NCBI RefSeq assembly: GCF_004323735.1
Contig: NZ_CP036455.1
Coordinates: forward strand, 124,001 to 188,000
Direction of reading: 5' to 3'
Origin: Streptomonospora litoralis
GTDB lineage: Bacteria > Actinomycetota > Actinomycetes > Streptosporangiales > Streptosporangiaceae
DNA: 64,000 nucleotides
The position numbers and the translations under genes were made by a program. Under the pieces are notes generated by a model that had not been told where the DNA came from, searched no databases, and saw nothing but the letters and a program-made list of their open reading frames with translations. Position 1 is the stretch's first letter. Each line of letters starts with the position of its first letter. Shown here piece after piece: positions 4,679 to 64,000 of this stretch.

Positions 4679-6091
<1,413 letters not shown>

Positions 6092-6119
6092 GCGCTTTTC
6101 CTCTTCCCTATCTCTGCCG

Positions 6120-6317
6120 CTACTGCGAGCGGACCCAGGCGTGGACTTCAGCGGGGACGTAGCGCAGGTACCGCCCGACGCGGTGCGAGGGCGGACCGTC
6201 GCCCTTGTAGCGCCATTCGTAGAGCGTCTTCGCCGGGACGCCGAGGAAGCCGGCGGTTTCCCGCACGGACCAGAGTTGCGCGGGGATGCTGTGGCCTTGC
6301 GTCGCGGCGGTCGTCAT
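6120..6317 (-). CDS. xis: excisionase-like MerR-type HTH protein
   Basis: This 65-residue protein is almost entirely a winged helix-turn-helix (about residues 16-62) with the pattern S-V-R-E-T-A-x-F-L-G-V followed by T-L-Y-E-W-R and a hydrophobic wing ending in V-H-A-W-V. That is the AlpA/Xis/MerR-like fold of AICE excisionases, which bend attachment-site DNA and bias the integrase toward excision. Its ATG overlaps the stop of repSA by four bases (6314-6317), giving translational coupling, and int begins 28 bases after its stop. The repSA-xis-int order is the standard AICE arrangement. Identification rests on fold pattern plus position. Confidence 0.9.
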   Translation of the reverse strand: MTTAATQGHSIPAQLWSVRETAGFLGVPAKTLYEWRYKGDGPPSHRVGRYLRYVPAEVHAWVRSQ

Positions 6318-8008
6318 GCGGCCCTTTCCGGAGTTGCCGAAGAAGCGTCGGATCGCTGTTGCCGAACGGCGTCGAGTTGGGCGCGGCGCTTGAGCGCTTC
6401 GCCGACCGCCCGCAGTAGGCGGTGTTCGCGCGGCGGGACGTCGGGATCGGTGGGGCGTGCCAGCTCCCAGGCGTGATTGCCGGAAGAATCCGCCGAGAAG
6501 ACCGGAGCGGGGCCGCCGTCGCCCTGGCCCTCGTCGGGGTCGGCGTCGGGATCCACGCCCAACGCGTCGAGGACCCAGCGCAGCCGGTCCGCCTTGTGAT
6601 CGGCGACGGTCTTACCGGACCACTTGCGCGAGACCAGGACACGGCGCCCGGCATAGCCGAGGTGTTCGCGCCGATGGGCTTTGGAGCGGCAGAAGCCCGG
6701 AGCCATGCCCGCCTTGGGGTTGTCCGGCTGGATGCCGTAGCGCAGCCAGTTCGCACACTTCGGCGAGCAGGGTTCGAACCGCAGGGCTTCCACGAGCCGG
6801 TCAACGTGGCGCTGTTGGGCGTCGGTGTCGACGGCGTGGCATTCGGCAATGTCCTTGGTCAGGTACTTCGCCAGGTACCGGACGCACCGGTCGGCGTCAT
6901 CGGTGCCGGCCACCACGCCCTTAGCGTCGACCTGCGGCCCGAACCGGACCACGTGCATCGGTTCGGCCGAAGGGTCGGCGTCGCGGGCATCGAGCGCCTG
7001 TTCCCAGGTGGGCAGCACTTCACCGGTCGCCATGTCGACATAGCCGCCGATCGACTCGTCCCAGGCGGGCAGGTTGTCAGCCGTATAGACGGCCTCGTCG
7101 GCGGCAGGCCACCACACTTGGTGATACGTGGCCGCCGCGATCTGGCGCAGCTCGGCACGCGGGATGGTTCCCCTCGTCGCCATGTGCAGGTGTGGCGCCA
7201 GCCGCCTTTGCGGTTCGACGGTGGCGAAGTACTGCACATCGAAGCCCGCCACGCGCCGAAGGTTCTGCACGAACCGGTCGATGAGCTTGGAGAAGTGCAG
7301 CGCGTCCCGAGCCGCCCGCCGGTAGTCGTACGTGGACGGATCCACCGGTGTGCCGTCCGCCTTCACCCGCCCGTAGCTGTCGCACGTCAGTGTCACGAAC
7401 AGCGACGGCCGGAAGATCTTCCCGGTCGCCGGATCCTCGTAGGAGCGCCCCACGGTCGTTTTCGCCATCTGCCGTTTCGGCAGGTCCGGCGCGTCCTGGC
7501 GCCGCTTGGTAGAGCGCACCCGACGAGCACCGCCCGACGAGGACGAGCCCCGCGAAACCGACCCGCGCAGCCCTGACGCGGTGATCTCCGTATCCAGGTC
7601 GGCGATGGCCTGATCGAGCGCGGCCACCTCGTCGGGAGCAGCGCCGCCCGCGTTCACGAGCCGATCCCGCTCGGCGGTCACCAGCGCGCGGCGTTCAACC
7701 CACGCCTGTTGAACCTCGGAAGGCTCCTCCGGTGTGACGGTCGGATCCTCGGCGAGGTGCCAGCCCTCTTCGCACTGGCTGCGCCGGATCGAGCGCTTGC
7801 GCTTGGCACAGGAGGGGCACCGGGATTCCAGCGTGGAGCTGCACGGCACGTCCACGATCTCGGTTCGGCCCGTGGCGATGTCGGTGCGGCGCAGCGATAC
7901 CGGGCGGATGCAGACGCCTTTGTCTGCGGCGATCTGCTCGGCCACCTCACGGGCGAGCGGTTGCGCTTGGCGCTCGGCTCGGGTGGACTTACCGGTCGGG
8001 GTTGGCAT
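6314..8008 (-). CDS. repSA: RepSA-type rolling-circle replication initiator
   Basis: This 564-residue initiator nicks the double-strand origin of the excised element and starts rolling-circle replication. Residues 55-80 carry C-P-S-C and a further Cys, likely a zinc-binding segment. The HUH motif is visible as P-H-L-H-M (near 290), and the downstream Y-L-A-K-Y-L-T-K-D segment (near 395) supplies the catalytic tyrosines typical of this family. A second Cys cluster (C-S-P-K-C) follows at about 430. Length and motif order match pSAM2 RepSA. The gene heads the repSA-xis-int set and overlaps xis by four bases. A strong hairpin near 15.3 kb is a candidate single-strand or transfer origin, but I did not identify the nick site. 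Confidence 0.9.
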   Translation of the reverse strand: MPTPTGKSTRAERQAQPLAREVAEQIAADKGVCIRPVSLRRTDIATGRTEIVDVPCSSTLESRCPSCAKRKRSIRRSQCEEGWHLAEDPTVTPEEPSEVQQAWVERRALVTAERDRLVNAGGAAPDEVAALDQAIADLDTEITASGLRGSVSRGSSSSGGARRVRSTKRRQDAPDLPKRQMAKTTVGRSYEDPATGKIFRPSLFVTLTCDSYGRVKADGTPVDPSTYDYRRAARDALHFSKLIDRFVQNLRRVAGFDVQYFATVEPQRRLAPHLHMATRGTIPRAELRQIAAATYHQVWWPAADEAVYTADNLPAWDESIGGYVDMATGEVLPTWEQALDARDADPSAEPMHVVRFGPQVDAKGVVAGTDDADRCVRYLAKYLTKDIAECHAVDTDAQQRHVDRLVEALRFEPCSPKCANWLRYGIQPDNPKAGMAPGFCRSKAHRREHLGYAGRRVLVSRKWSGKTVADHKADRLRWVLDALGVDPDADPDEGQGDGGPAPVFSADSSGNHAWELARPTDPDVPPREHRLLRAVGEALKRRAQLDAVRQQRSDASSATPERAA

Positions 8009-8042
8009 TCCGGCTCCCTTCCGCTCGGAACGAAGTCACGAG

Positions 8043-8294
8043 GTGACCGCGGTGAAGCGACGCAGGACGCTTTCTGAGGAACGGGCGACCTGGAAATTCA
8101 TGACGGTCATCTGCGCTCCGATGGCCGTCGTGGGGATAGGCAACGTGATCAGGGGGTTCACTGCGGGTTCCCTCGGATGGACCATGCTCGGAGCCGTCGC
8201 TTTCGCTTTGTTCGCAAGCATCGCTGCGGTGTGCGGGGACCGGCTGAGGAGAACCCGGCATCAGACCGAGTCCTCCGCGCGCGAGGCCGCATAG
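8043..8294 (+). CDS. small two-helix membrane protein within the AICE
   Basis: This 83-residue frame is one of few on the + strand of the element. It starts at GTG 8043 (GTG 8052 is also in frame), has a basic N-terminus (K-R-R-R), two hydrophobic segments at about 20-37 and 43-62, then a basic tail. It is divergent from repSA, with starts 34 bases apart, and its 3' end overlaps the end of the translocase gene by 34 bases. Small membrane proteins near tra genes in Streptomyces elements often act in intramycelial spread (Spd proteins), but no sequence similarity is asserted and the orientation is atypical. Codon use is acceptable though not decisive. Confidence 0.5.
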   Translation: MTAVKRRRTLSEERATWKFMTVICAPMAVVGIGNVIRGFTAGSLGWTMLGAVAFALFASIAAVCGDRLRRTRHQTESSAREAA

Positions 8295-9697
8295 CTCTCG
8301 GCCATGTGGTCGATGTCGGCATCGGTGACGAACGCGGCCCGCACCCGCACCGGGGCCGGCGAACCCTCCAGCTTCACGAAGGCGACGCCGGGTAGGTCGG
8401 GGTCGATGAGGTGGGCGTTGCCGCCCCGGTCCCGCGCCCCGTCCCCGAGGACCATGTCGACCTGGCTTGCCTCGTCCAGCCGGAGCGCGATCTTGTCCGG
8501 GAACAGGTTGCGCAGGTTCAGCACCTCCTTGCGCGGATCCTGCAGCGCCGCCAGGACGCAGAACCCGACCGACCGTCCCTGACTGGTCAGGGTGGCGATG
8601 GCGTTCTCCGCACGGCGCCGGATCTCGCGCTCGGGGTGGTAGGCGGTCAGGAACGCGACCTCGTCGAGAACCACCACCACGAACGGATCCCGCGTGTTGG
8701 GCACGTGGACCCGTTTGCGGCCCGCATAGCGCTCGGCGCGTTCCTGCATCGCCCCGACAGCGTCTTCCAGGAGGGACACGGCCTCGTCGGCGGCGTCGGC
8801 GTAGCGGGCGAACAGGTTGCGTCCGTAGGAGAGTTCCATCCGCTTGGGATCGATCGCCCACACCTGCGCCGCCCCCGCATCGATCGCCGGGACCATGGCC
8901 CGGATGGTCGACCACAGCACCGACCCCTTGCCCGCACCCGTCACCCCGACGGTGAGGACGTGGGTGCCGTGCAGCCGCAGGTTCCACGGTTGCCCGTCCT
9001 CGCAGCGCCCCACGGGCAGTGCGCCCAGGTCCACATCCTGGGGATCGTCGGGCACGGGTAGCGCGTCGATCTGCTCGGCGAGCATGTCCCGCCGGGGGAA
9101 CTCCAGCACCAGATCCCGCGGCCCGCGCACCTCGACGCGGCACGACGGGGCGCCGAAGCCGTGCGCCAGCTCGGACACGCGCTGTTCGAACTCGGCGGGG
9201 GCGGTGCCGGCCACCAGCTTGACCCGCACCCGATCGGCCCACGCCGAGCAGGTCACCCCCCGGATCTGCGGCAGGTACTGGCGTTCGAGGTAGGACTCGG
9301 CCAGGCCGGAGACGACGAGGACGGGTTGCCAGTGGCGGCGGTAGATCCAGAACCGGCGCCAGGTCGCCAGCGCCCGCAGCGCCACACGGGCCTTGAAGGA
9401 GTGCGGCCAGCGCCGCCACCACACCAACAGAGCTATGTCGGTGATCGTCCACAGCGCCGCCAGCCCGAGCCATCCGGTCAGCACGTAGACGGTCACTGAG
9501 ACGGCGACCGTGGCGACCGAGACGGGGAACTGGACCGGCAGGAGGACGAGCAGCCGCAGGAAGCGCCACAGCCACCCGGTGAGGATGAAGATCCCCGGCG
9601 TCTCGACCACCGGGGTCGTGAAGCGCACCGCTTGCGCGGGCACGGGAGCGGTGGGCCGCTGGACCTGGGAGGCGCCCGCGCTGGAGTTGCCCAGCAT
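8261..9697 (-). CDS. FtsK/SpoIIIE-type conjugal DNA translocase (TraB-like)
   Basis: This 478-residue protein is the likely single transfer protein of the element. Such hexameric ATPases pump double-stranded DNA between mycelia. Two or three hydrophobic segments at about 35-95 anchor it in the membrane. The motor domain has Walker A G-V-T-G-A-G-K-G (about 225-232) and Walker B V-V-V-V-L-D-E-V-A-F (about 305-314), followed by an FtsK-like R-x-x-G segment (S-Q-G-R-S-V-G-F) and a distal region that may hold the DNA-recognition helix. The ATG at 9697 overlaps the stop of the upstream 83-residue gene. It is shorter than chromosomal FtsK, as expected for TraB/TraSA proteins. Confidence 0.88.
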   Translation of the reverse strand: MLGNSSAGASQVQRPTAPVPAQAVRFTTPVVETPGIFILTGWLWRFLRLLVLLPVQFPVSVATVAVSVTVYVLTGWLGLAALWTITDIALLVWWRRWPHSFKARVALRALATWRRFWIYRRHWQPVLVVSGLAESYLERQYLPQIRGVTCSAWADRVRVKLVAGTAPAEFEQRVSELAHGFGAPSCRVEVRGPRDLVLEFPRRDMLAEQIDALPVPDDPQDVDLGALPVGRCEDGQPWNLRLHGTHVLTVGVTGAGKGSVLWSTIRAMVPAIDAGAAQVWAIDPKRMELSYGRNLFARYADAADEAVSLLEDAVGAMQERAERYAGRKRVHVPNTRDPFVVVVLDEVAFLTAYHPEREIRRRAENAIATLTSQGRSVGFCVLAALQDPRKEVLNLRNLFPDKIALRLDEASQVDMVLGDGARDRGGNAHLIDPDLPGVAFVKLEGSPAPVRVRAAFVTDADIDHMAESYAASRAEDSV

Positions 9698-9948
9698 CAC
9701 CGACCACCCCCGACCCCGGCGTCGGCGCGGACGGCGTCCAGCTCGGCACGCGCCTCGTCGGCGACCGCGTTGGTTTCGGTGTCGTCGGTCTGGGCGGCGA
9801 TCCGATCGAGGATGCTGGACTTCCACGCCAGCAGCGCCGCATCCGGGCGCGGTTCGGAGCCGTTGAAGGCGGCGTTGCGGTGGGCGCGCACGGCGTCCAT
9901 GAACGCGGTGATCTCGCGGATGCTCACCCGCGCAGGCTGTTGGGACAT
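9697..9948 (-). CDS. small AICE hypothetical protein coupled to the translocase
   Basis: This is an 83-residue, charged, helix-rich protein without membrane segments. I do not recognise it. Its TGA overlaps the ATG of the FtsK-like gene in the pattern ATGA, so the two are translationally coupled and probably act together in transfer. The ATG at 9948 lies near the start of this transcription unit. A terminator hairpin at 9999-10034 separates it from the pra-like gene upstream, so it may head its own transcript. Small proteins in this position are common in pSAM2-like elements. Confidence 0.75.
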   Translation of the reverse strand: MSQQPARVSIREITAFMDAVRAHRNAAFNGSEPRPDAALLAWKSSILDRIAAQTDDTETNAVADEARAELDAVRADAGVGGGR

Positions 9949-9998
9949 ACTGGGGACACACCTCTTCCAGGGATTACGTAGGTCTCGCAGGGGTGGAA

Positions 9999-10034
9999 GG
10001 GGCGGCCGGGTGCGCCAACACCACAGGCCGCCCC
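9999..10034. terminator. hairpin after the pra-like gene
   Basis: GGGGCGGCC (9999-10007) pairs perfectly with GGCCGCCCC (10026-10034) around an 18-base loop. It follows the stop of the pra-like gene at 10054 on the minus strand and precedes the translocase unit. There is no T tract, which is common for high-GC actinobacterial terminators. Confidence 0.55.
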
Positions 10035-10053
10035 GCTTGCAGGCGCGGGACGT

Positions 10054-10491
10054 TCAGCCCGCGTCCTTACCGCCGGAGCCACCGGCACCGGATGCCGCAG
10101 CGGCCGGGGCCTTGCGGGAACCACCGCCGCCGGGCGTCTTCACACCGCGCGCCCGCAGCGAGTACGCGACGCGGGGACGCCGGCCCGAGTCGTCGACGTA
10201 GGGCATCACCGACATCTGCTCGAACTCGACGGGCCGGAAGGGCAGGCCGGGGACCTCGTCGGGCAGGGTCGGGCAGTGCTCGGCGGCCACCTTCACCTTC
10301 ACGCTCTTGGCCTTGCCGCGGGCTTCGGGGTCGGCGTCGATCACGTCCACCGCCCACAGCGGCAGCCCGGACACCTTGTCCATCTGCGGACGCTTGGTCT
10401 CGAAGTCGGTGATCGCCTCCACCGACAGCGCGTAAGCGCCGTGCGGGAACACCGTCCCGAACTCCACCGGCAGCGCACCCTGAATCGCCAT
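10054..10491 (-). CDS. pra: Pra-like activator of AICE replication, integration and excision
   Basis: This 145-residue protein resembles the family annotated in streptomycetes as plasmid replication, integration and excision activator, after pSAM2 Pra. Shared features recalled for that family are F-P-H-G-A near residue 16, a central V-D-V-x-D-A-D-P-E-A, F-x-P-V-E-F, and P-Y-V-D-D-S-G-R-R-P-R followed by a low-complexity Gly/Ala tail. In pSAM2 Pra switches the element from maintenance to replication and transfer by activating rep-xis-int. It has no clear DNA-binding motif. Copies of a TCTAG-containing motif lie just upstream at 10512-10616, making this a likely regulated promoter. Assignment is from remembered family sequence, not a search. 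Confidence 0.72.
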   Translation of the reverse strand: MAIQGALPVEFGTVFPHGAYALSVEAITDFETKRPQMDKVSGLPLWAVDVIDADPEARGKAKSVKVKVAAEHCPTLPDEVPGLPFRPVEFEQMSVMPYVDDSGRRPRVAYSLRARGVKTPGGGGSRKAPAAAASGAGGSGGKDAG

Positions 10492-10511
10492 CTCTCCGCC
10501 TCTCTTAACTC

Positions 10512-10616
10512 TGTATGCCCCCCTAGACAGTGTGGATCGTCCACCACAGCGAGTGCTGTCTAGGGGTATGGACAGAAGGTAGCGCGTCGAAGCGGCGATT
10601 GTCTAGGGGGATACTC
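10512..10616. promoter_or_regulatory. three-copy TCTAG operator/promoter cluster upstream of pra
   Basis: Three related sites occur here: TGTATGCCCCCCTAGACAG at 10512-10530, CTGTCTAGGGGTATGGACAG at 10556-10575, and TTGTCTAGGGGGATACTC at 10599-10616. The first is inverted relative to the other two, so CCCCTAGACAG (10520-10530) and CTGTCTAGGGG (10556-10566) form an exact inverted repeat. Read toward pra, the second and third give a shared GTATxCCCCTAGACA-like block that could be both a -10 region and an operator. The third site overlaps the 3' end of the PP2C gene. A fourth related copy is at 12816-12835. Confidence 0.55.
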
Positions 10617-11436
10617 AGGCGGGGGTGTGTCCGTAGACGACCGTCGCGTCATCGTGGTTCTTGGCGCGCGGCCACCGCTGCCCCTGCGGGTCACTGTTCT
10701 CGGCTTCCCGTACCCGTGCGATCAGTGCATCCGGGCCAGCGTCGGCGAGGGTGTCGAGAGTGTCGCGCCAGGTGGCCAGGCCGAAGCGGTCGGCCAGGCG
10801 GGTAGCGCCGTCGCTGAGCAGCGCCACGGCGGCCACCTCGTCGAGCCCGACGCGGCCGGTAATGGCCTCGTCGGCGGCACCCGGATCGGTGTTGGCGACC
10901 CAGAACTCGCCGGGGCGGTTGCGGTGGTCGGCCAGGGCCGCGACGTAGTCGCGCACCGCCTGCTCGTGCTCGGGCGTGCCGGTGGGCAGCGCATCCATGG
11001 GCTTTCGCAGTTCCGCGCCGACCACGGCTTCCCGGTCGTCGGTGACCACCTCGGGGGAGGTGCCAGCGCGGTCGAGGACGAGCGAGGAGTCCGCTAGGAC
11101 CAGGTACTCCAGTTCGCTCGCATCCCACCGCAGCGCCACGACGGTGGATGAGGGCGTGTCGGAGTGCTTGAGGTCGCAGGTGTCGGCGTGCAGCCGGTTC
11201 ACCCGCTCGATGCTGCTAGCCAGCGCACCGGCGAGCGTGTCGCCTGAGCTGAGCGCGCTCAGCAGTAGCCCGCCCAGGGTGTGGGAGTACCAGGCGACCC
11301 CGTGCACGCATCCGGATTCCGTGCCGGGCGGGGTGCCGGCACCGTCGAGCAGCACGGCCGCGTCGGTGCCCACGGCGGCGAAGTCCTCGTTGGGCCGGTC
11401 GGGTTTGGCAGGGGCGGTGGCCAGACGGAAGGGCAC
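10615..11436 (-). CDS. PP2C-family serine/threonine phosphatase
   Basis: This 273-residue protein has the metal-binding pattern of PP2C-type phosphatases: an N-terminal P-N-E-D (Asp18), V-L-L-D-G-A-G (Asp31), a central A-L-L-S-D-G-A-T-R segment, and C-terminal H-D-D-A-T-V-V (Asp262-Asp263). These aspartates coordinate the Mn/Mg pair that hydrolyses phospho-Ser/Thr. No sensor or membrane domain is fused. It is last in a tight operon on the minus strand: ATP-binding protein, HTH protein (overlap of 4 bases), then this gene after a 3-base gap. The gene set recalls partner switching, with kinase/anti-sigma, DNA-binding factor and phosphatase, but no STAS antagonist is encoded in the element. Confidence 0.85.
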   Translation of the reverse strand: MPFRLATAPAKPDRPNEDFAAVGTDAAVLLDGAGTPPGTESGCVHGVAWYSHTLGGLLLSALSSGDTLAGALASSIERVNRLHADTCDLKHSDTPSSTVVALRWDASELEYLVLADSSLVLDRAGTSPEVVTDDREAVVGAELRKPMDALPTGTPEHEQAVRDYVAALADHRNRPGEFWVANTDPGAADEAITGRVGLDEVAAVALLSDGATRLADRFGLATWRDTLDTLADAGPDALIARVREAENSDPQGQRWPRAKNHDDATVVYGHTPA

Positions 11437-11439
11437 GGA

Positions 11440-12408
11440 TCAGTCCTGGTCGTGGCGGTATACGGGCGTGATCAGTTCAGCGCGCTCGGGTTCACCGGTG
11501 TCGGGGTTGTACACCGTGCGCACCAGCGTCGAGAACCGCTCGGCACCGACCTGGCCCCACAGTGAGGCGATCTCGCCGTTGAGCAGGTGAGCGACCCCGC
11601 GCGAACCCTGCGGGTGGATTCCGGCGATGGCCAGGAACGTGCCTTGACCGTCCGGCCGGGCAAGCCGCCCGAGGTAGGCGACGTCCATGGGCTCTTGCGG
11701 ATCCATCTCCTGACCGGAGCGGTAGCTCTCACCCGTGCGCGTGTCATGCAGCAGCCACAGCCCCGGTTCCGCGCGCTCCCACCGGATGACGGGGTCGGTT
11801 TCGTAGGCGTTGCGCATGGGCTCGGACATGGCCGGTCCGCAGACCACGACGAGGTTGGAGCGGTTGAGGTCGATGTGGCCGTCCACGGTGACGTGGTCTG
11901 AGACGGCCTGCATGTCGAAGGAGCGCACCAGCTCCTCTAGCGCTTGGCCCGTGGCCATGTCGTCGAGCGACAGCACGGGCCGGTCCTTGACCTGGTCATA
12001 GCGCAGCGGGGTCGCCACGGTGACCGTGCCCAGGCCGAGGAAGGCCGCTTCCGGCGCAGGGCCGGTGTGGCGGATCTGGTGGATGCGCCCGCGGCTCAGC
12101 CCTGCCTTGTCGGCGATCTGGGCATAGGACATGCCCTGGGCGTGCAGGTCCTGGATCAGGCGCCGCCGCAGGCGGGAGAGTTCGGTGACCTCCTGCTGGG
12201 CTTCGGCCAGGCGCTCTGTGGCAGCGCGCAGCAGCTCGAAGGGGTCTTCGATCTCCGCTATGCGTTCGAACTGGCCCGGCATCAACGCTCCCTCGGTCAC
12301 TCGGACCGAGTCTAGGACCCTAGACAGAGCAGGCGAAACGTCCGCCCCGGTCTCAGCATCGACCACCCGGAAGCGCGTACGCCGCCGAGGCATGCGCGGA
12401 CCGCTCAT
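11440..12408 (-). CDS. sigma-region-4-like HTH regulator with uncharacterised C-terminal domain
   Basis: This 322-residue protein has a predicted coiled helix at about 50-83, then a helix-turn-helix resembling sigma-70 region 4 (about 84-114, with M-S-Y-A-Q-I-A-D-K-A-G-L-S-R-G-R-I). It ends in a globular domain of about 190 residues that I do not recognise; that domain holds V-V-V-C-G-P near its start and G-I-H-P-Q-G-S-R-G later, which could be a ligand- or nucleotide-binding fold. No region 2 is present, so it is not a conventional sigma factor. The ATG at 12408 overlaps the stop of the ATP-binding gene. A perfect palindrome containing TCTAG lies inside its coding sequence (12310-12325). Confidence 0.7.
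   Translation of the reverse strand: MSGPRMPRRRTRFRVVDAETGADVSPALSRVLDSVRVTEGALMPGQFERIAEIEDPFELLRAATERLAEAQQEVTELSRLRRRLIQDLHAQGMSYAQIADKAGLSRGRIHQIRHTGPAPEAAFLGLGTVTVATPLRYDQVKDRPVLSLDDMATGQALEELVRSFDMQAVSDHVTVDGHIDLNRSNLVVVCGPAMSEPMRNAYETDPVIRWERAEPGLWLLHDTRTGESYRSGQEMDPQEPMDVAYLGRLARPDGQGTFLAIAGIHPQGSRGVAHLLNGEIASLWGQVGAERFSTLVRTVYNPDTGEPERAELITPVYRHDQD
12310..12325. promoter_or_regulatory. intragenic palindrome with TCTAG half-sites
   Basis: GTCTAGG-AC-CCTAGAC is a perfect 7-bp inverted repeat inside the 5' coding part of the HTH gene, followed directly by AGAG. It shares the CTAGAC half-site of the sites upstream of pra and of the ATP-binding gene, so it may be an autoregulatory site for this cassette. 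Function is inferred only. Confidence 0.35.
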
Positions 12409-12803
12409 GAAGGCCCGTCGGTGACCAGCTTCGCCCACACCCGCAACCCGAACGGGTCCGGCTCGAAGCCCCAATCTTTGGATAGCGCGGCCACGATGGC
12501 CAGGCCCCGACCGTGGTCGTCGACCGCGCCGAGATCTGCCGGCGGCCGGGCGGTGGGCGTGGAGTCGCCGCCGAGGTCGACCACGGCCACCTGCGCCGAG
12601 GCGGGTTCGGCCTCGACGTGGACGACGAAGGGGCCGCACCATTCGCCGCTCAGGGAGTGTTGGACCGCGTTGGTGGCGAGCTCGCTTATGACGAGCTCGG
12701 CCGGATCGGCTAAGGGATGGCCGTCCATCACGGCGCGGGTGAAGGCGCGGGCTTGGGCGACTTCGGTCGGGAGACCGGGGAACATGCGGGACCAGCTGAC
12801 CAT
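12405..12803 (-). CDS. RsbW-like ATP-binding (HATPase_c) regulatory protein
   Basis: This 132-residue protein is a stand-alone GHKL ATPase of the anti-sigma/serine kinase type. The N box reads E-L-V-I-S-E-L-A-T-N-A-V-Q-H (about 40-53), the G1 region is V-V-D-L-G-G-D, and the G2 region is D-D-H-G-R-G-L-A-I-V. In actinobacteria such proteins often pair with XRE/DUF397 or HTH regulators. It is first in an operon with the HTH and PP2C genes; its stop overlaps the next start. ATG 12803 is chosen because GGTGGTG lies 6 bases upstream; GTG 12815 is the longer alternative. A TCTAG motif sits immediately upstream at 12816-12835. Confidence 0.85.
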   Translation of the reverse strand: MVSWSRMFPGLPTEVAQARAFTRAVMDGHPLADPAELVISELATNAVQHSLSGEWCGPFVVHVEAEPASAQVAVVDLGGDSTPTARPPADLGAVDDHGRGLAIVAALSKDWGFEPDPFGLRVWAKLVTDGPS

Positions 12804-12815
12804 CGTGATCACCAC

Positions 12816-12835
12816 CGTCTAGAGGGCTATACACC
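12816..12835. promoter_or_regulatory. TCTAG operator/promoter upstream of the regulatory cassette
   Basis: CGTCTAGAGGGCTATACACC on the + strand matches the copies near pra. Read toward the cassette it gives GTATAGCCCTCTAGACG, with TATAGC positioned as a possible -10 element some 20-25 bases before the start codon. The shared motif suggests common control of the cassette and pra. Confidence 0.45.
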
Positions 12836-12890
12836 GCAGTGATGTGCAGAGTAGGCCACCGACAGCCGGTGATTCAACGAATTCACTGAA

Positions 12891-13679
12891 TCAGTGTGCA
12901 AGCTCCTCGAAGTCCCGCCGGATGCGCGCCAACAGCTCGGCCGCCTCCTCGCCGGTCACCGCCACCGCTTCGAGCCGGGCATAGGCGTCGACGTAGGTAG
13001 CAACCGCGTCCGGCTCGGTGATGGTCATCTGCGCCGTGAACGTCTCCACCACCACGGCCTCGTCGTCGAACACCGCGAACCCGTGCGGAGGCACCACCGG
13101 CAGCGGCACCGACCACGGCACGACAGCCAGGCGCACGTTCGCCATCTCGCAGGCCCGAGCGACGCGGTCGAGCTGTTCCGGCATCATCGATCCGTCCGCC
13201 GGCCACGTCCGAAGCGCACCCTCAGTGACGACGAACCCGAAGTCACACCGGGCGTCGCCAATCCGGTCGACCAGCGGAGAGGGAGATGCGCCGGCCGCAT
13301 TCGCGTACTCGGAAGACCTCAGCGCACGCGGAACCATCGCCGACTGAAACTCGCGCACCGTGGCAGCGCCCCGCTCCCACCGCCGAGCAGCGTCACCGAG
13401 CAGCGACACTCCGGCATCAATCCGGCGATCTCGGCGATCGGCGTAGGCACCCCGAATCCGGGCGCGCAGTGAGGCAGCCGCATTCGCGTTGACGGGCAGC
13501 GCAGCGACGACCTGCTCGACGGTCATGGGATCATCAATACGACGCCCGTTCTCGATTCGCGAAACCGTCGACTGGACGACGCAGGCTCTCCTTGCTAATT
13601 CGCGCCCGGATAGACCGCATTCTTCACGTATTTCTCGCAGTCGCCGCCCCAGTGAGGGTAGGTCGTCTTCTTCGGTCAT
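12891..13679 (-). CDS. XRE-family HTH regulator with DUF5753 domain
   Basis: This 262-residue protein has an N-terminal Cro/CI-type helix-turn-helix (about 8-62, with L-S-G-R-E-L-A-R-R-A-C-V-V-Q-S-T-V-S-R-I-E-N) and a long C-terminal domain of the DUF5753 type common in streptomycetes, recognisable by the internal E-x-A-L-R-T-W and the late F-A-V-F-D-D-E-A-V-V-V-E segment. Such proteins usually act with a small DUF397 partner and a stand-alone ATP-binding protein. Here the ATP-binding gene lies just downstream on the same strand, but no DUF397 gene is visible. The ATG at 13679 is the first in frame. It may control element maintenance or the cassette below it. Confidence 0.88.
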   Translation of the reverse strand: MTEEDDLPSLGRRLREIREECGLSGRELARRACVVQSTVSRIENGRRIDDPMTVEQVVAALPVNANAAASLRARIRGAYADRRDRRIDAGVSLLGDAARRWERGAATVREFQSAMVPRALRSSEYANAAGASPSPLVDRIGDARCDFGFVVTEGALRTWPADGSMMPEQLDRVARACEMANVRLAVVPWSVPLPVVPPHGFAVFDDEAVVVETFTAQMTITEPDAVATYVDAYARLEAVAVTGEEAAELLARIRRDFEELAH

Positions 13680-13721
13680 GTGGCAGATGCGTCGATTCTA
13701 TAGCCAGCGTTTCTGGTGTTG

Positions 13722-15215
13722 CTAATCGAAGTTCTGTATATGCCCGAGTTCTCGAGCATAGTTTCGGAGTTTGGTGAGAATGTACACAGAAATGTCCGCG
13801 CGATTTTTAGGGGTCAAAAAGTCGCCTTTTCGCCATGCAAATTCTAGGCAGACGGCATCTTGTTCGAGGTAGAATGAAGCATCGGGGAGTAGTGGAGTAA
13901 AGTCCAACTGGGTTTCGGCTTGGAAATTACTACTCTCGATATCTTGGGATCCTAAAAACGTTTCTATTCCCGCGAGGATGGCTCGATTTAGTGGCTTGTC
14001 GCGAGCTGCAGTGAAACCCTTTTCCGATAGCAGCGTAAACGCTGGGAGGGATACGGTTGATGGTGTTCCGCGAGTTTCAAATGTAGGAGTGACTGTGCCG
14101 TTCAAATATTTCCCGATATCGCTTCTGCTGATGGTTCTAGCGATTGAGTAGTTATCAGGAAAGTTGATTCCGAGATCTTCAAGATCCTTTGTGGCTGTGG
14201 AAGAATATTTTCGAAGCAGGGGAATGCTAACAGCGGGGGGAAGACCGAAAGTTCTGGCATCCAGTTGGACGATCATCTGGGTTAAGAGCCCTCGATGATC
14301 TCTCCACCAACGACCCACTTCGCTCGACTTGGTGGCGTCCAGCAAGGCATTGCCGTCGACAAGACCAAACCTGGTGCTGTTGGTTAGCTGTGTCAGCACA
14401 CCGGCGTCGGGGCTCTCCGACACAAATACGACAACAAGGCGTACGGGCTTGCGTGTTTCCTGGAGAATTCTAACCCGACGATTAGTGAAGTCATCGGATA
14501 TGTGACGGAGGTAATCGCCGAGACTTCGGTACTCCTCGGCTGCATAGTCTTCAGGGTTGACGCCGAGCAACTCCAGGGATTCTACACTATTGGACATCTC
14601 CAAGGTGTGAGTGGCAATGGATGGCCAAGACTCTGGAGAAGGACCTTGGATTTCAGATGGTATGGCTACTGGAGATCTCCCAGCAATTTCTATGTAACCT
14701 CGAGCCATTTCAGAAGCTAGGGGTTCTGCTGTTTCTGGCCAAAGAATCAGGACCCTTTTTCCCAGAGTAGGCTCTCGCAAAAACCTCTTGATATTGGCCA
14801 GTTCGGCGTTATCCGCTGGATTGCTTTCTCTGTGGTCGATATTTACTGGAATAACACGATCTTCGTTCGCTGGAAAGTTCTGGGTCGCATGCTGCACCCT
14901 CGTTTTTAGAGCCTCGAAGGTGACGTTCCCTGAATGTTCGACAGTCTCAGTGTAATGTTGGGGGTGGAAGGTTCGTAGGCTATGGGCGAGCGTCGTCTTT
15001 CCGGTTCCAGAGGCGGCGAATACGGGCATAAACAGGCCTTCACCGCGTGCTTTGATGCTTTCCGCTGCGATCTCGAACGTCTTCGAAGTGGACTCGGGGG
15101 GCGCCACGACCAGCTTTGCCAATTCTGATCCGACATATTCAATTAATTGTTCATAGCGGGCCGGGAATACTAGTTGACGAAGTACGTGTTCGGTTGGATT
15201 AGGAGATTCCGACAC
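13722..15215 (-). CDS. AT-rich cargo P-loop NTPase of unknown family
   Basis: This 497-residue protein starts at GTG 15215. A clear Walker A, A-A-S-G-T-G-K-T-T-L, spans residues 68-77 after about 65 residues that may form a helical cap. Hydrophobic strands ending in acidic or polar residues at 154-162 (V-L-I-L-W-P-E) and 259-268 (L-V-V-V-F-V-S-E) are Walker B or sensor candidates. The C-terminus (453-497) has an acidic-aromatic-basic pattern, L-E-F-A-W-R-K, then a helix, which might be a nuclease-like or effector domain, though no canonical E-x-K motif is seen. There is no membrane segment. The DNA is visibly AT-richer than all neighbours, with A/T-ending codons, so the gene is a recent acquisition. 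AICE cargo of this type is often defence-related; that is inference from position. Confidence 0.8.
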   Translation of the reverse strand: MSESPNPTEHVLRQLVFPARYEQLIEYVGSELAKLVVAPPESTSKTFEIAAESIKARGEGLFMPVFAASGTGKTTLAHSLRTFHPQHYTETVEHSGNVTFEALKTRVQHATQNFPANEDRVIPVNIDHRESNPADNAELANIKRFLREPTLGKRVLILWPETAEPLASEMARGYIEIAGRSPVAIPSEIQGPSPESWPSIATHTLEMSNSVESLELLGVNPEDYAAEEYRSLGDYLRHISDDFTNRRVRILQETRKPVRLVVVFVSESPDAGVLTQLTNSTRFGLVDGNALLDATKSSEVGRWWRDHRGLLTQMIVQLDARTFGLPPAVSIPLLRKYSSTATKDLEDLGINFPDNYSIARTISRSDIGKYLNGTVTPTFETRGTPSTVSLPAFTLLSEKGFTAARDKPLNRAILAGIETFLGSQDIESSNFQAETQLDFTPLLPDASFYLEQDAVCLEFAWRKGDFLTPKNRADISVYILTKLRNYARELGHIQNFD

Positions 15216-15810
15216 TATCCATTCCAAACTAGTTGGGCGGGCTAATATTGGTTGCCGAATTGGGCTGTATGGAATCAAGGCGGCGGCACTGCGCCGCCGC
15301 TGCGGTTTGCTGGGGGTGTGCTCGGGCTGCGGGCTGGCGCCCGGTCCCGAGCACACCCCCAGCCGCCGCCGGGTCTTCGTAGACGCATCGCATGATTGCC
15401 CTCCAAGCCCTCCGGGCGTCCATGACTATGGTGACGTTTCGCGCAGACAAACCGTTGCCTGTTGCTGAACTCGGGTTGATGACGTTCTGGGTCCCGAGGC
15501 ACTCGGTCGCGCGACTCTGTCTGTCTCGGGTGGCCGGCACCAGCGCGACCGAGCACCTCGGACCGGGGCCGTGGATGCCGAGCGCCTTGGGTTGCCGGAA
15601 GCGCGGAGTACCGTGGACGGGCCAGCGCGCCGATGAGGACAGGACACCACACCGTCGGGGCGCGCCTGCTCTGGTTCGCGTCAGCCGATGCACATTTGAT
15701 GCACACGGCGCCAGGACACCCCCGGTACCGCCGGGAAGCGGTAGGCATCAACGGGTGCTCTGACCAGCGGTGTATCCGCCCCGCCGCTGGCCCTACCTAC
15801 CCCCGATCAC
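15216..15810. other. AICE right-end non-coding region with hairpins and possible integrase arm sites
   Basis: This stretch of 595 bases between the cargo gene and the right att core holds no convincing gene. Near its left end are strong dyads (GGCGGC-N7-GCCGCC near 15283 and the 18-bp hairpin listed separately). Toward the core there are a direct repeat of GATGCAC at about 15685-15702 and a GGTACC dyad, plausible arm-type sites for integrase or Xis. The 18 bases 15793-15810 encode the alternative integrase C-terminus used after excision. Confidence 0.5.
15309..15363. repeat. 18-bp perfect inverted repeat (strong hairpin)
   Basis: GCTGGGGGTGTGCTCGGG (15309-15326) is the exact reverse complement of CCCGAGCACACCCCCAGC (15346-15363), with a 19-base spacer. 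Smaller GC dyads flank it. It lies upstream of the cargo gene start in the largest non-coding block of the element. Candidates are a single-strand replication origin, the clt transfer locus, or a terminator; the lack of a T tract and of a nearby convergent gene end makes a plain terminator less likely. Confidence 0.75.
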
Positions 15811-16206
15811 ACGAAGAGGTCGTGGGTTCAAATCCCGCCACCCCGACGGAAAAACGGGTGTCCACGCAGGTGGGCACCCGTTTTCGTGTGTGCGGGGGTT
15901 GTGGGCGCTCAGGGGCCGGTGCAGACTCAGGCGCACATGCTCCGGGGCGGTTGGCCGTGCTGGGGCCGCGTTGGCGCGAGCGGCGGCGGCCTTCATCCGC
16001 CCGGCGTCCATGGCGTCGGCGACCTCGTCCAGGCGGTCCGGGAAGAGATGGCCGTAGGTGTCGAGCGTCATGGTCGCGGTCGCGTGGCCGAGCATCTGCT
16101 GAACCACCTTCACGTCCGCGCCGGCTGCGATGGCGAGTGACGCGGCGGTGTGCCGCAGCTTGTGCGGAGTCAGGCCGAGTCCATCGAGGCCCGCGTCCTT
16201 GCGCAA
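15793..16206 (-). pseudogene. 3' remnant of a second, related integrase
   Basis: The minus-strand frame here matches roughly the last 125 residues of the element's integrase, from R-K-D-A-G-L-D-G-L through H-K-L-R-H and the catalytic D-T-Y-G-H to the C-terminus, with a diverged linker (A-N-A-A-P-A in place of S-K) and scattered silent changes. Similarity stops abruptly at 16206, where unrelated repeat DNA begins, and everything upstream in the gene is missing. It is therefore the fossil of another AICE that once sat in tandem at the same tRNA in the same orientation. The frame ends at the stop at 15793, reading V-I-G-G-R after the core. Confidence 0.9.
15811..15956. repeat. right attachment repeat (attR), 146 bp
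   Basis: This is the second copy of the 146-bp repeat at 4739-4884, identical by eye. It contains the tRNA-Pro 3' half (15811-15846), the terminator hairpin (15854-15881) and the 3' end of a second integrase gene. No 5' half of the tRNA precedes it, confirming that it is the distal junction. Confidence 0.9.
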
Positions 16207-16590
16207 AAGTCGGCCCCTTCGAGGGTACGCGCGGCCCCCTGCCCGCGCGGACCCGGCCGGAACACTGCGGCGCCGCCTCCCAGGCCCCGCGCCCGCCACG
16301 TCCGACGTTCGGGAGTCGGCCGCGGCGATCGTGGCGAAAATTCCAATGAACGCCGCTGGATTTCGTCATACGGCCACGATCGCCGCGCCGCCCTGCGACA
16401 TAACGGGCACGCGAGCGCCTCCCGGCTCCCCGGCCTCCTCGCCGCCCCGTCGGCTGCGCCACCGGCGGGCATCCGGCCCGATGGGCGCGGGCCCGGCCCC
16501 GCTGCCGCTTTCCAGCCGAGTCCGCCCGACACCCCGGAGACCAAAAGGCCCACAACAAGGCCACAGCAGACCGGCGTTCGTGAACACGGC
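16207..16590. repeat. dispersed repeat, copy 1 (truncates the integrase remnant)
   Basis: Positions about 16225-16436 match 63800-64000 on the same strand. The match includes the hairpin GGCGATCGTGGC (16324-16335)/GCCACGATCGCC (16373-16384) around a conserved GAACGCCGCTGGAT segment. The right part, about 16440-16590, is a reversed copy of the module that begins copy 3 at 62832. The outer end reads, on the minus strand, CTAA then GCCGTGTTC, against CTAG then GCCGTGTTT in copy 3, i.e. inverted ends next to a CTAR tetranucleotide. No transposase frame was found. The left edge cuts directly into the integrase remnant. Confidence 0.75.
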
Positions 16591-16660
16591 TTAGTCGACG
16601 TTGGGCCGGCGCGGCCCGTCCGGGCGGCCGCCGGTGGACCGCAGCCGCGGCGTGGGTGGG

Positions 16661-46159: not shown

Positions 46160-46925
46160 GCCGGCTGGGTGTCGCCGTGTTGCGGCCGGGACCGCGCGGG
46201 CCGGAGGCCGCGCGGTGGGGCGCGGGCGCGGGTGCCCGCACGGCCCTGTGGTGCCGCCGGATCGGGGGTCGGGGGGCGACGACACGTCGCTCGTGGCGCC
46301 CGGATGTCGCCGCCGGTGGCTCCACGGCCCGATGGGGTGGACTTTTGGTGGCCCATGCCCGTTTTGCGGGCGGTCTCGGCGGGCGCGGCGGCCACGAGGT
46401 GCACGAAAAGTTGATGTCGGGGGCGTTTTCGCGCCATTCGGTGTGCCTCGTGGACCACCGCCGCCGCAGCGCGGCTGCACGACCATCGGGAATTCGGGTA
46501 TTGGCGGACAAAACATCCCCTGCTGTTTCGTATCGCGGAATGGCGGTGCGGGGGTGGCGCCTTGGGGCGACGCCGAGGCGGGTGCCGTCGCACGTGTGTG
46601 CGTCTCGTGGCCCCGATCCGGCCGCATGGCGGCGCCCGGGGCTCGACCACCCGCGGGCCAGGGGCGGTGACCGCCGCCCCGACCACCGCGGCCCGGCCCC
46701 GCCGCCGCCGGCGTTGTCGCCGCCTCGTTGGCCGCCGCCACCGGCGAGCACCCGGCTCGTTGGGCGCAGGCGCCACCCCGCGGTGCCCTCGCCGCCCCGT
46801 CCGGCGGGCCACCGGCGAGCACCCGACCTGATGGGCGCGGGCTCTGCCATCCGCGCCGCCGTCGCCGCTTTTCCTAAGGCCTCCTGCCTCCCCGCAGACC
46901 ACAAGACCGCACAGCACACCCGATC
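46160..46925. repeat. dispersed repeat, copy 2 (between the Tad half-loci)
   Basis: The reverse complement of this segment matches 63173-63880 over most of its length, with blocks near identical for tens of bases, e.g. 46315-46455 against 63540-63680. It holds the conserved inverted repeat CCACGAGG (46392-46399)/CCTCGTGG (46446-46453). Frames are shifted between copies and no protein pattern is preserved, so it is probably non-coding. The outer ends seen in copies 1 and 3 are missing here. A short related fragment lies at about 45995-46050 in the opposite orientation. Confidence 0.75.
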
Positions 46926-52262: not shown

Positions 52263-52375
52263 GCGCCGCGCCCAGCCGCTGTCACCGGGGCCCGCGCCCG
52301 CCGGGTCCACCGGTGCAAGACGCCGATACCGCTGTGCCGGCCGCGCACCGGCGCCCCGTCGGAAGCGGAGATGAC

Positions 52376-52409
52376 GACGGCCCCCGCCGGGGGGATAGCG
52401 GGGGCCGTC
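52376..52409. terminator. terminator of the sensor-domain gene
   Basis: GACGGCCCCCGC (52376-52387) pairs perfectly with GCGGGGGCCGTC (52398-52409) around a 10-base loop. It is 114 bases after the stop codon. Confidence 0.85.
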
Positions 52410-53223
52410 GGACGGTCCCGGCTCTGGGGGGGTAGAGCCGGTACCGCTTCCGGATAAGTCTCGCGTCTCGGGCGCAGAGCCCGACAGGTCGTAGCGCGGT
52501 CGAGGATCCGAGCCTCGTCCACATCGTCACATAAGCGGGTAAATTGCACCAGATCCGAATAAGGCGGACTGCGTCGGCCGGGGCGCGCCGGGGAGTAAGC
52601 CGAGGGGTGCTTGCGTCCTCACCTGAGTAATAGGTATAGCACGAGACGCTACCACGCCGAATTGGCGTACCGCCGGGATGTTTTGACCTCGCAGGGGCTT
52701 TTCAGTGTCCGCCGGCAGGCGTACAAAGGAAGGACAAGGTGGATCGGCGATCCACCGAACACGGGCACCGGGTACCCACGCGTCACCAAGCCGCGGGAGG
52801 CTCGTCCAGATCGGGGAGCAATCGCTGGTCGGACTATGAGTAAGCACGCATGATAGCCCGGGTGTCCGTGTTTGCGGCGGCGCCCCGACCAGCGGTCCGG
52901 GACCGGGCGGGGTGCCGTCTTTATGTGCGCAAGAGTCCCAAACCGGTCATATCGGCTGTTCTTGCCGGGGAAAAGTAATCGGATCGAGATTGCGTGTTCG
53001 GTGGGGCTTCCCGCGCCCGCCCGATCCCGCTAGTCCGCTCGGAGTTTCCCCGCGGTCCGCAGCTTCGCGAAGGGCGAAGGGTCGAGCGAGGGGCGAAACA
53101 CTCTTCCGCCCCTCGGTCTTGTGTCCTCGGAATCGCGCCTGCGCCGCGACGGCACCTTCGGCACGGCCTCGACCCAGCGGGCCCGCGGCTGAGCCGGCAG
53201 GCTACGCGGGCGCCGAACCGCCC
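52410..53223. other. long intergenic region, AT-richer, unassigned
   Basis: About 800 bases without a supportable gene. The segment 52600-52860 is less GC-rich than its surroundings and contains a perfect GGTGGATC/GATCCACC hairpin near 52738-52756 and other short dyads, so a leader RNA or small RNA is possible. A basic 80-residue frame at 52611-52853 has poor codon use and no ribosome binding site. Neither flanking gene is positioned to be controlled by it from the + strand. Confidence 0.4.
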
Positions 53224-58635: not shown

Positions 58636-58770
58636 GGTCTGCTGTGCGGTCCTGCCGGCCTGCCGAGTGACAGGCGGTCTTACGGAGAAGCGGCGACGAC
58701 GGCGCCAGCGGGGTCGGGCCTGGGGTTGCCGGATCGGGTGTCCGCCGGTTGGGCGCGCGACGGAGGGTGC
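58636..58770. repeat. partial copy of the 137-bp repeat module
   Basis: This segment resembles the module repeated at 62850-63262: it begins GGTCTGCTGTGCGG-TCCTG, continues with CTGCCG and GGAGAAGCGGCGACG, and ends with GGGTGTCCGCCGGTTG. Only part of the module is present, and it differs at many positions. It lies directly after the DUF309 stop. Confidence 0.5.
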
Positions 58771-62767: not shown

Positions 62768-62831
62768 TCGGCGCGGCCCGGACAGCGGCGCGGTCGCGGC
62801 ACGCGCCAAGGGGTGGCGCGGGTGGTGCTAG

Positions 62832-64000
62832 GCCGTGTTTAAGACCGCCGGTCTGCTGTGCGGCCTTGTTGGTCTGCCGGGTGTCGGGCGGACTCGACGG
62901 GAAGGCGGCAGCGAGCACGGCGGAGGGCTGGGCCTGCGGTCACCGGGTCGAGTGCTTTCCGGTGGCGGCGGTCGGCGAAGCGGCCCCGGTCTGCTGGGTG
63001 GCCTTGTCGGACTGCCGGGCGACGGGTGGACTTGACGGGAAGGCCGCAGCGAGCACGGCGGGTGGTCGGGCCTGCGGTCATCGGGCCGGGTGATGCCGGT
63101 GACGGCCGCCGGCGAAGCGGCCCCGGTCTGCTGGGCGGCCTTGTCGGTCTGCCGGGCGACGGGTGGACTTGACTGAAAAGCGGCGGCGACGGTGGCGGAG
63201 GGCTGGGCCCGCGGACATCGGTTCCGGTGCTCGCCGGTGGTCCGCCCGACGAGGCGGCGACGCCGACGGGGCCGGGCCTCGCGGTAGTCGGGGCGGCGGT
63301 CACCGGCCGCGGATGATCGAGCCCCGAGGGCGCCGCCCGGTCGTCGGCGGGGCCTGATGCGGGGCGGTCGGCGGCAGCCATGCAGCCGGATCGGGACCAC
63401 GAGATGCACGTAGGTGCGGGGGCACCCGCCTCGACGCCGCCCCGAGGTGCCGTCCTCGCGCTTTCATTCCGCTATACGGAACAACGCGGGGTGTTTTGTT
63501 CACTAATGACCGATTTCCCAGTGGGTCCGCCCCCGTGCTGCGGCTGCGGTGGCGCACGAGGCGCACCGAATGGCGCGAAAACAGCCCCCGGCGTCAACTT
63601 TTCGTGCGTCTCGTGACCACGGCGCCCGCCGAGGCCGCCCGCAAAACGGGCATAGGCCCCCAAAAGTCCACCCCATCGGGCGGTGGAGCTCCCGGCGGCG
63701 ACGCCCGGGCACCACGAGCGACGTGTCGTCGCCCCCGGCCCCCGAGTCGGCGCACCACCGGGCCGTGCGGGCACCCGCAACCGCGCCACACCGCGCGGCC
63801 TGCGGCCGGTGCGGGCCCGGCCGGAACACGGCGGCGGTGCCTGTCCACCCGCGCCCGCTATGTCCGACGTGCCGGAGCCGGCCGCGGAGGTCGTGGCGAT
63901 CGTGGCCGAATTCCCAAGAAACGCCGCTGGATCTCGTCATACGGGCACGATCGCCGCGCCGCCCTGCGCCATCACGGGCCCGCGAGCGCCTCCCGGCTCC
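62832..64000. repeat. dispersed repeat, copy 3, continues beyond the window
   Basis: The left end, CTAG then GCCGTGTTT, is matched in inverted orientation by the outer end of copy 1 (CTAA then GCCGTGTTC). Going right there are three tandem modules, a segment matching copy 2 (about 63173-63880), the conserved inverted repeat CACGAG (63555-63560)/CTCGTG (63610-63615), and the hairpin region 63895-63955 matching copy 1. No transposase-like frame or conserved protein appears. The organisation suggests a large non-autonomous mobile element whose right end is outside the window. Confidence 0.7.
62850..63262. repeat. three tandem copies of a 137-138 bp module
   Basis: Units start at 62850, 62988 and 63125, each with GGTCTGCTG followed by GGCCTTG and CTGCCGGG. 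The first two units end in GGCGAAGCGGCCCC. The third grades into the shared core. The reversed single module at the end of copy 1 and a partial one at 58636 show that the module also occurs alone. Confidence 0.8.

Follow-up and report, generated by a model that had tools for sequence, protein, structure and literature searches.

The 64,000-nucleotide stretch analysed here (hereafter the window) contains copies of a large dispersed repeat which consists of a conserved non-coding core placed between two arrays of tandem units, all of which point toward the core. We consider it reasonably probable that these sequences are mosaic repeats of a foldback-like, non-autonomous kind, some of which were perhaps moved by an IS5-type transposase acting in trans. 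A non-autonomous mobile repeat is preferred because of the layout, the absence of genes, the dispersal of the copies and the match of some outer ends to an IS5-type element.

Copy number and layout

The genome (5.81 Mb) consists of two contigs, C1 (5.72 Mb) and C2 (90 kb). A DNA search of this genome with window positions 62832–64000 returned at least 95 matches among the best 40 candidates scored. Searching the genome and its relatives, as the original prediction had proposed, revealed 67 places with a core, as well as elements of the same layout elsewhere. The 67 places come from a model that uses sequence alone and covers 139 core positions, derived from 10 copies (150 candidates scored; all 67 loci fetched). 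All are located on C1 (63 at 96 bits or more, four lower), and the core model gave no match on the 90-kb contig C2. Borders could be defined by all-against-all comparison, and the 67 copies are 655–2008 bp long (median 1264 bp); at this median length the core copies alone occupy approximately 85 kb of one genome.

The core, about 462 bp, shows a median pairwise identity of 84% (range 78–100%, 40 copies). On both sides it is bordered by arms composed of tandem units of about 137 bp. All 278 unit matches in the 67 loci face the core, including 160 on the left (in core orientation) and 118 on the right (inverted). Both arms are present in 59 of the 67 loci, with 1–10 unit matches per locus. A conserved core bordered on each side by such inward arrays is the defining layout of the family and goes beyond what had been predicted; it allows a single strand to pair with itself. 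Elements with the same inward layout and no core were also detected (L080, as well as L238 and L239, which are outside the 67-place core-model list).

The numbers of left and right units per element are weakly correlated (0.13; 202 units, matches of at least 85 model positions). Units within one arm have a likeness of 0.823, versus 0.785 between elements, and units from opposite arms of one element (0.785) are no closer than those between elements. Because same-arm units are the most alike and opposite-arm units are not, we conclude that the arms probably grow through unit duplication inside each arm.

Three segments of the window had been predicted to share sequence, and this was borne out: segment 62832–64000 matches 46173–46638 and 46778–46854 (inverted) at 78–89% identity, and 16228–16554 in three blocks at 81–88%. 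The third copy (62825–64000, +), whose similarity to other copies spans positions 526–2182 of its fetched locus (L021), is cut by the window end, and its right arm runs on for about 0.48 kb to about C1:188481. It starts with an IS5-type left end, CTAG followed by GCCGTGTTTAAGACCGCCGG (62828–62851, +; one mismatch to the family end). Three left-arm units come next, at 62851–62968, 62989–63104 and 63126–63240 (all +; model R2, 67.3, 63.3 and 85.3 bits), and then the conserved non-coding core of about 462 bp at 63370–63831 (+; model R1 part 63551–63688, 131 bits). The second copy (L133; 45971–46942, −; borders from the all-against-all comparison), in which no IS5-type end was found, has its core at 46185–46628 (−; model R1 part 46320–46456, 119.9 bits) and arm units at 46735–46914 (−), of which 46808–46914 is nearly full and 46735–46798 partial. 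The first copy (16205–16594, −; start approximate) is a fragment without a core-model match, in which one unit (16457–16570, −; unit model, 36.1 bits) is followed by a left-type IS5 end (GCCGTGTTCACGAACGCCGG; 16571–16590, −; two mismatches) and then TTAG. Thus, copies 1 and 3 both show the left-type end, not the opposite outer ends that had been described for them. In addition, a lone arm unit without a core (L240) is present at 58637–58750 (+; unit model, 57.7 bits).

The shared sequence of the first copy begins at most about 25 bp from 16204, where a direct repeat covering a portion of an integrase-like ORF ends. The region 4679–16204 resembles an AICE-like integrated element beside a tRNA (4701–4774). 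It contains an integrase-like ORF (4679–6091) and an FtsK-like ORF (8261–9961), both named from reading their translations; a portion of the former is repeated directly and almost identically (4739–5120 and 15811–16204, in two blocks). Elsewhere in the window, a 6C RNA (RF01066, 56 bits) is located at 52372–52447 (−).

Coding potential, evolution and genomic position

The prediction of a large, protein-free repeat whose reading frames are not conserved between copies was well supported. Our GC-frame caller detected a codon-biased ORF in 0 of 67 elements. Substitution rates in the core by codon position (0.100, 0.102 and 0.103) reveal no period of three, gaps are mostly of one nucleotide, and all six frames are interrupted, each in 52–78% of 40 copies. 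A Pfam search of six open stretches and an NCBIfam search of five gave no match. Membership of the segments in a known IS or in a family of degraded coding genes had been named in advance among the findings that would speak against the prediction. The IS5-type ends on some core copies point toward decay of an IS or gene family; however, with no period-three signal, no codon-biased ORF and no protein-family match, such an origin appears extremely improbable.

It might also be considered that the repeat carries a structured non-coding RNA in its core, some invariant stretches of which are complementary to each other (for example GGCCACGAG/CTCGTGGCC). However, the covariation term calculated by RNAalifold is just −1.57 of −74.57 kcal/mol, and double changes of any kind occur in 7 of 83 pairs. 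When 189 variable columns were scanned for linkage, the members of the 12 top pairs lay only 1–4 columns apart. Rfam yielded no gathering-level match in the element within the window and three sub-threshold matches in five loci. We therefore regard a structured RNA as very unlikely.

Linkage between core columns decays rapidly, with r2 of 0.15 at 1–3 bp, 0.04 at 9–30 bp and 0.03 beyond, which is the shuffled level (37 copies, after three near-duplicates were dropped from 40; 119 informative columns). Pairwise distances calculated from the two halves of the core have a correlation of 0.035, versus 0.29 for odd and even columns. Since the core-half distances are uncorrelated, we read the copies as probably recombining frequently with each other. 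Local haplotypes are nevertheless shared, for example a two-base variant in 13 copies, and L021 and L022 have 239 identical bases in a pair that is 91% alike overall. Shared runs of at least 60 bases occur in 12 of 780 pairs, against a permuted-column mean of 4.3 and maximum of 13; this count is not conclusive on its own, and the case for recombination rests on the linkage result. Near-identical tracts between L035 and L045 lie within the elements, which is compatible with conversion without transposition. The best evidence for mobility, albeit indirect, comes from the unit-ended copies: almost the entire L143 element has a 97% match of 1019 bp within L141, which lies about 40 kb from it, and the match stops at the unit ends, the flanks of L143 being unlike L141. 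Gene conversion could also give such a match.

In 37 copies, 110 of 459 core columns are invariant, whereas about 10 would be expected under equal rates (Poisson). Changes found in one copy only (mean 0.60, variance 0.45) are lowest in some conserved blocks (0.15–0.40 per column), and their smoothed correlation with shared variation is 0.14. A master sequence under constraint is likely; there is no clear sign that each single copy is under purifying selection, the one-copy changes showing no excess variance over all columns.

With regard to neighboring genes, 19 copies in this genome lie between convergent, 6 between divergent and 23 between tandem genes (48 in total; 19 of 67 uncalled), and the corresponding numbers for copies in other genera are 11, 1 and 5 of 17 (17 of 34 uncalled). 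Genome-wide, convergent and divergent pairs are expected to be about equally frequent, and the window contains 7 convergent and 8 divergent pairs among 35. Because the pooled 30 convergent versus 7 divergent pairs depart from this parity (P = 0.0002), the elements, which sit between genes, show a preference for 3' ends.

The convergent-gene preference, the excess of invariant columns with the fewest one-copy changes in some of the most conserved blocks, the high scores of the core matches (63 of 67 reach at least 96 bits) and the presence of the same layout in several genera would all suit sites that serve the host, such as bidirectional terminators or nucleoid/chromosome-organisation sites, selected after an ancient spread. 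We find this doubtful, considering that the one-copy changes are not overdispersed over all columns and that coreless copies exist. Moreover, a core motif appeared in GTDB, with the own genome left out, in only 17 scattered stretches from unrelated taxa, which were taken as chance and left unaligned.

Outer ends, flanks and a possible IS5-family partner

Two types of outer end were observed: the IS5-type end, and the unit itself (GGCGGSTCGGGTCTGCTG, read by eye). The 20-mer of the IS5-type left end (GCCGTGTTTAAGAACGCCGG) has 49 matches at up to three mismatches and the right end (GCCGTGTTTAAGAAGTGCTGGATC) has 18, versus 0 for the reversed control in the former case and 0 for the control in the latter. 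The IS5-type end (GCCGTGTT) is present on 24 of the 67 core copies, on both sides in nine. The remaining 43 lack it within six substitutions, in a scan that allowed substitutions only and thus missed the right end seen in L031. The original prediction had regarded this motif as the defining end of an element of about 1.2 kb or longer with inverted ends and no transposase. The element is indeed large and protein-free, but such ends were found only in some copies, and a defining role for them is not supported.

The flanks of IS5-type ends are typically mirrored (CTAA...TTAG), and the flanking 4-mers are identical in just one of nine two-ended core copies; direct duplication of the proposed 4-bp CTAR target is therefore not supported. 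The mirrored flanks are compatible with a CTAG target within which TA is duplicated. No direct repeats were detected around copies in this genome (27 tested, P = 0.46–0.88) or around elements in other genera (34 tested, P = 0.29–0.62). One coreless element, whose end motif lies at C1:1968620–1968643, appears to have an IS630 copy of this genome (L122, C1:1968743–1969630) inserted at its TTAG end.

Among 150 family genomes, the motif of the IS5-type end was detected in four: this genome, G004, G023 and G045. G023, which belongs to another genus, has five matches, and the three fetched are ends of one 1.04-kb IS. The copies of this IS (L112, L116 and L119) are 99.5–100% alike, with an open 302-aa frame and CTAG on both sides. 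The 302-aa protein matches NF033580 (8.2e-73), and also Pfam DUF4096 and DDE_Tnp_1. An IS with the same ends, of the kind that the prediction had suggested looking for, was found in G023 only, as an IS5-family IS. In this genome, no IS with GCCGTGTT ends was found, and nothing matched the G023 transposase at E ≤ 0.001; its three DDE_Tnp_1 ISs and its three IS630 copies were rejected as partners because their ends differ. In G004, about 390 bp lie between similar ends at one locus (L121, read by eye).

According to the preferred reading, GCCGTGTT-ended copies would be spread by an IS5-type transposase in trans, with insertion at CTAG and TA duplication, and unit-ended copies may also be spread in trans by some transposase. 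The arms would then lengthen by tandem duplication, and gene conversion would homogenise the copies.

We also compared flanks in 34 elements of other genera (G042, 22; G012, 8; G096, 4), using other copies of the same genome as the comparison set. The 25 bases on the left are complementary to the element's own right 25 bases more than to those of other copies (15.1 vs. 11.7, P = 0.0001), and the same comparison for direct repeats in these 34 elements gave P = 0.30. The complementarity persisted without the three strongest copies (P = 0.0024) and when four G012 copies sharing an extended end were also removed (P = 0.043), and was seen in each genome (G042, P = 0.017; G012, P = 0.0004; G096, P = 0.041). 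Flanking palindromes extend up to 25–40 bases in some elements (L215, L217 and L190), with little in many of the 34. In the own genome, copy-specific inverted-repeat flanks were absent.

A tentative alternative, which we judge possible, is that mobile elements of this bacterial family target palindromes already present behind genes and insert at their apex, which would make nested palindromes grow there; each genus would have its own centre, with the same unit-type ends and no target duplications. The flank complementarity backs insertion at a palindrome apex only in part, and for this reason apex insertion was kept off the main reading. The inverted-repeat flanks in other genera and the lack of flanking direct repeats, together with the linkage equilibrium and tract sharing described above, could also point to multiplication by ectopic recombination and template switching between palindromes, with no transposase involved. 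Nevertheless, the copies are dispersed over many intergenic sites with definable borders and, in a subset, have ends like those of an actual IS from another genus, which makes this process rather unlikely.

Related elements and comparison with known systems

The same layout was observed in a congener and two other genera, and one pair only in a third genus. All nine loci fetched from G004 agree with the inward layout. Among the nine first-fetched loci of G012, three have both arms and agree, and the other six showed one arm. Adjacent end motifs within 1.5 kb in G042 are inward in 22 of 25 cases, outward in none and tandem in three; for G012, the values are 9 of 14, 0 and 5 among the subset of matches that were retyped (one-match contigs are left out). 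The centres of several G042 elements (L182, L184, L189 and L190) hold long hairpins starting GTTGATCTCGG or GATGATCATGG, common to several elements, as if hairpin modules had been combined. Another locus of this genome (L210, C1:5511300–5512150) is a minimal 77-bp element, almost just two inverted unit ends.

Prokaryotic MITEs are given as 50–500 bp in passages of PMC10969869. The repeats described here resemble MITEs, as characterized in the same passages, in that they are multicopy, intergenic and transposase-free, with inverted ends, some of which are common to an IS family (PMC10969869). On the other hand, they are 0.65–2.0 kb long and have arms made of tandem arrays. In most copies no IS-type end was found, no target duplication was seen, although one of 2 bp (TA) is possible, and a partner IS was found in G023 only, not in this genome. 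On the basis of size, target duplication and resident partner, the MITE assignment was rejected in spite of the shared absence of a transposase. The element may well work as a foldback-type or MITE-like passenger.

BrickBuilt of Porphyromonas gingivalis, as outlined in sections of PMC4596501, is likewise intergenic and multicopy, with tandem repeats within an inverted-ended element, but has a single array of a 23-nt repeat instead of two inward arrays of about 137-bp units around a core. REP/BIME mosaics are also intergenic mosaics of palindromic parts, and ISs that insert into REPs parallel the insertion into palindromes considered possible for the present elements, as far as excerpts of the sources indicate (PMC1525189, PMC3733652, PMC2817692). 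REPs are described in part of PMC3733652 as 20–40 bp; the units here are about 137 bp and all inward, not 20–40 bp and alternating, and on this comparison by description, not sequence, a BIME/REP assignment was rejected.

With the IS5 family (NF033580 type, G023) the repeats share outer ends (TARGCCGTGTTTAAGAA) and the CTAG context. Membership was rejected, as the element encodes no IS5 transposase; in addition, such ends were found on a minority of core copies only.

Eukaryotic foldback (FB-type) transposons have long inverted arms of variable-number tandem subrepeats around a middle domain. By this general definition, the inward orientation of every unit and the presence of both arms in most loci correspond to foldback arms; the differences are the bacterial host, the absence of a visible target duplication and the lack of a known enzyme. 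If our reading is true, these repeats would represent a large equivalent of foldback elements in bacteria, with copies that evolve in concert and an insertion rule (palindrome apex, CTAG) that is open to test, and would offer a natural system for studying the maintenance of long inverted repeats in bacterial genomes and the processes by which dispersed copies remain alike.
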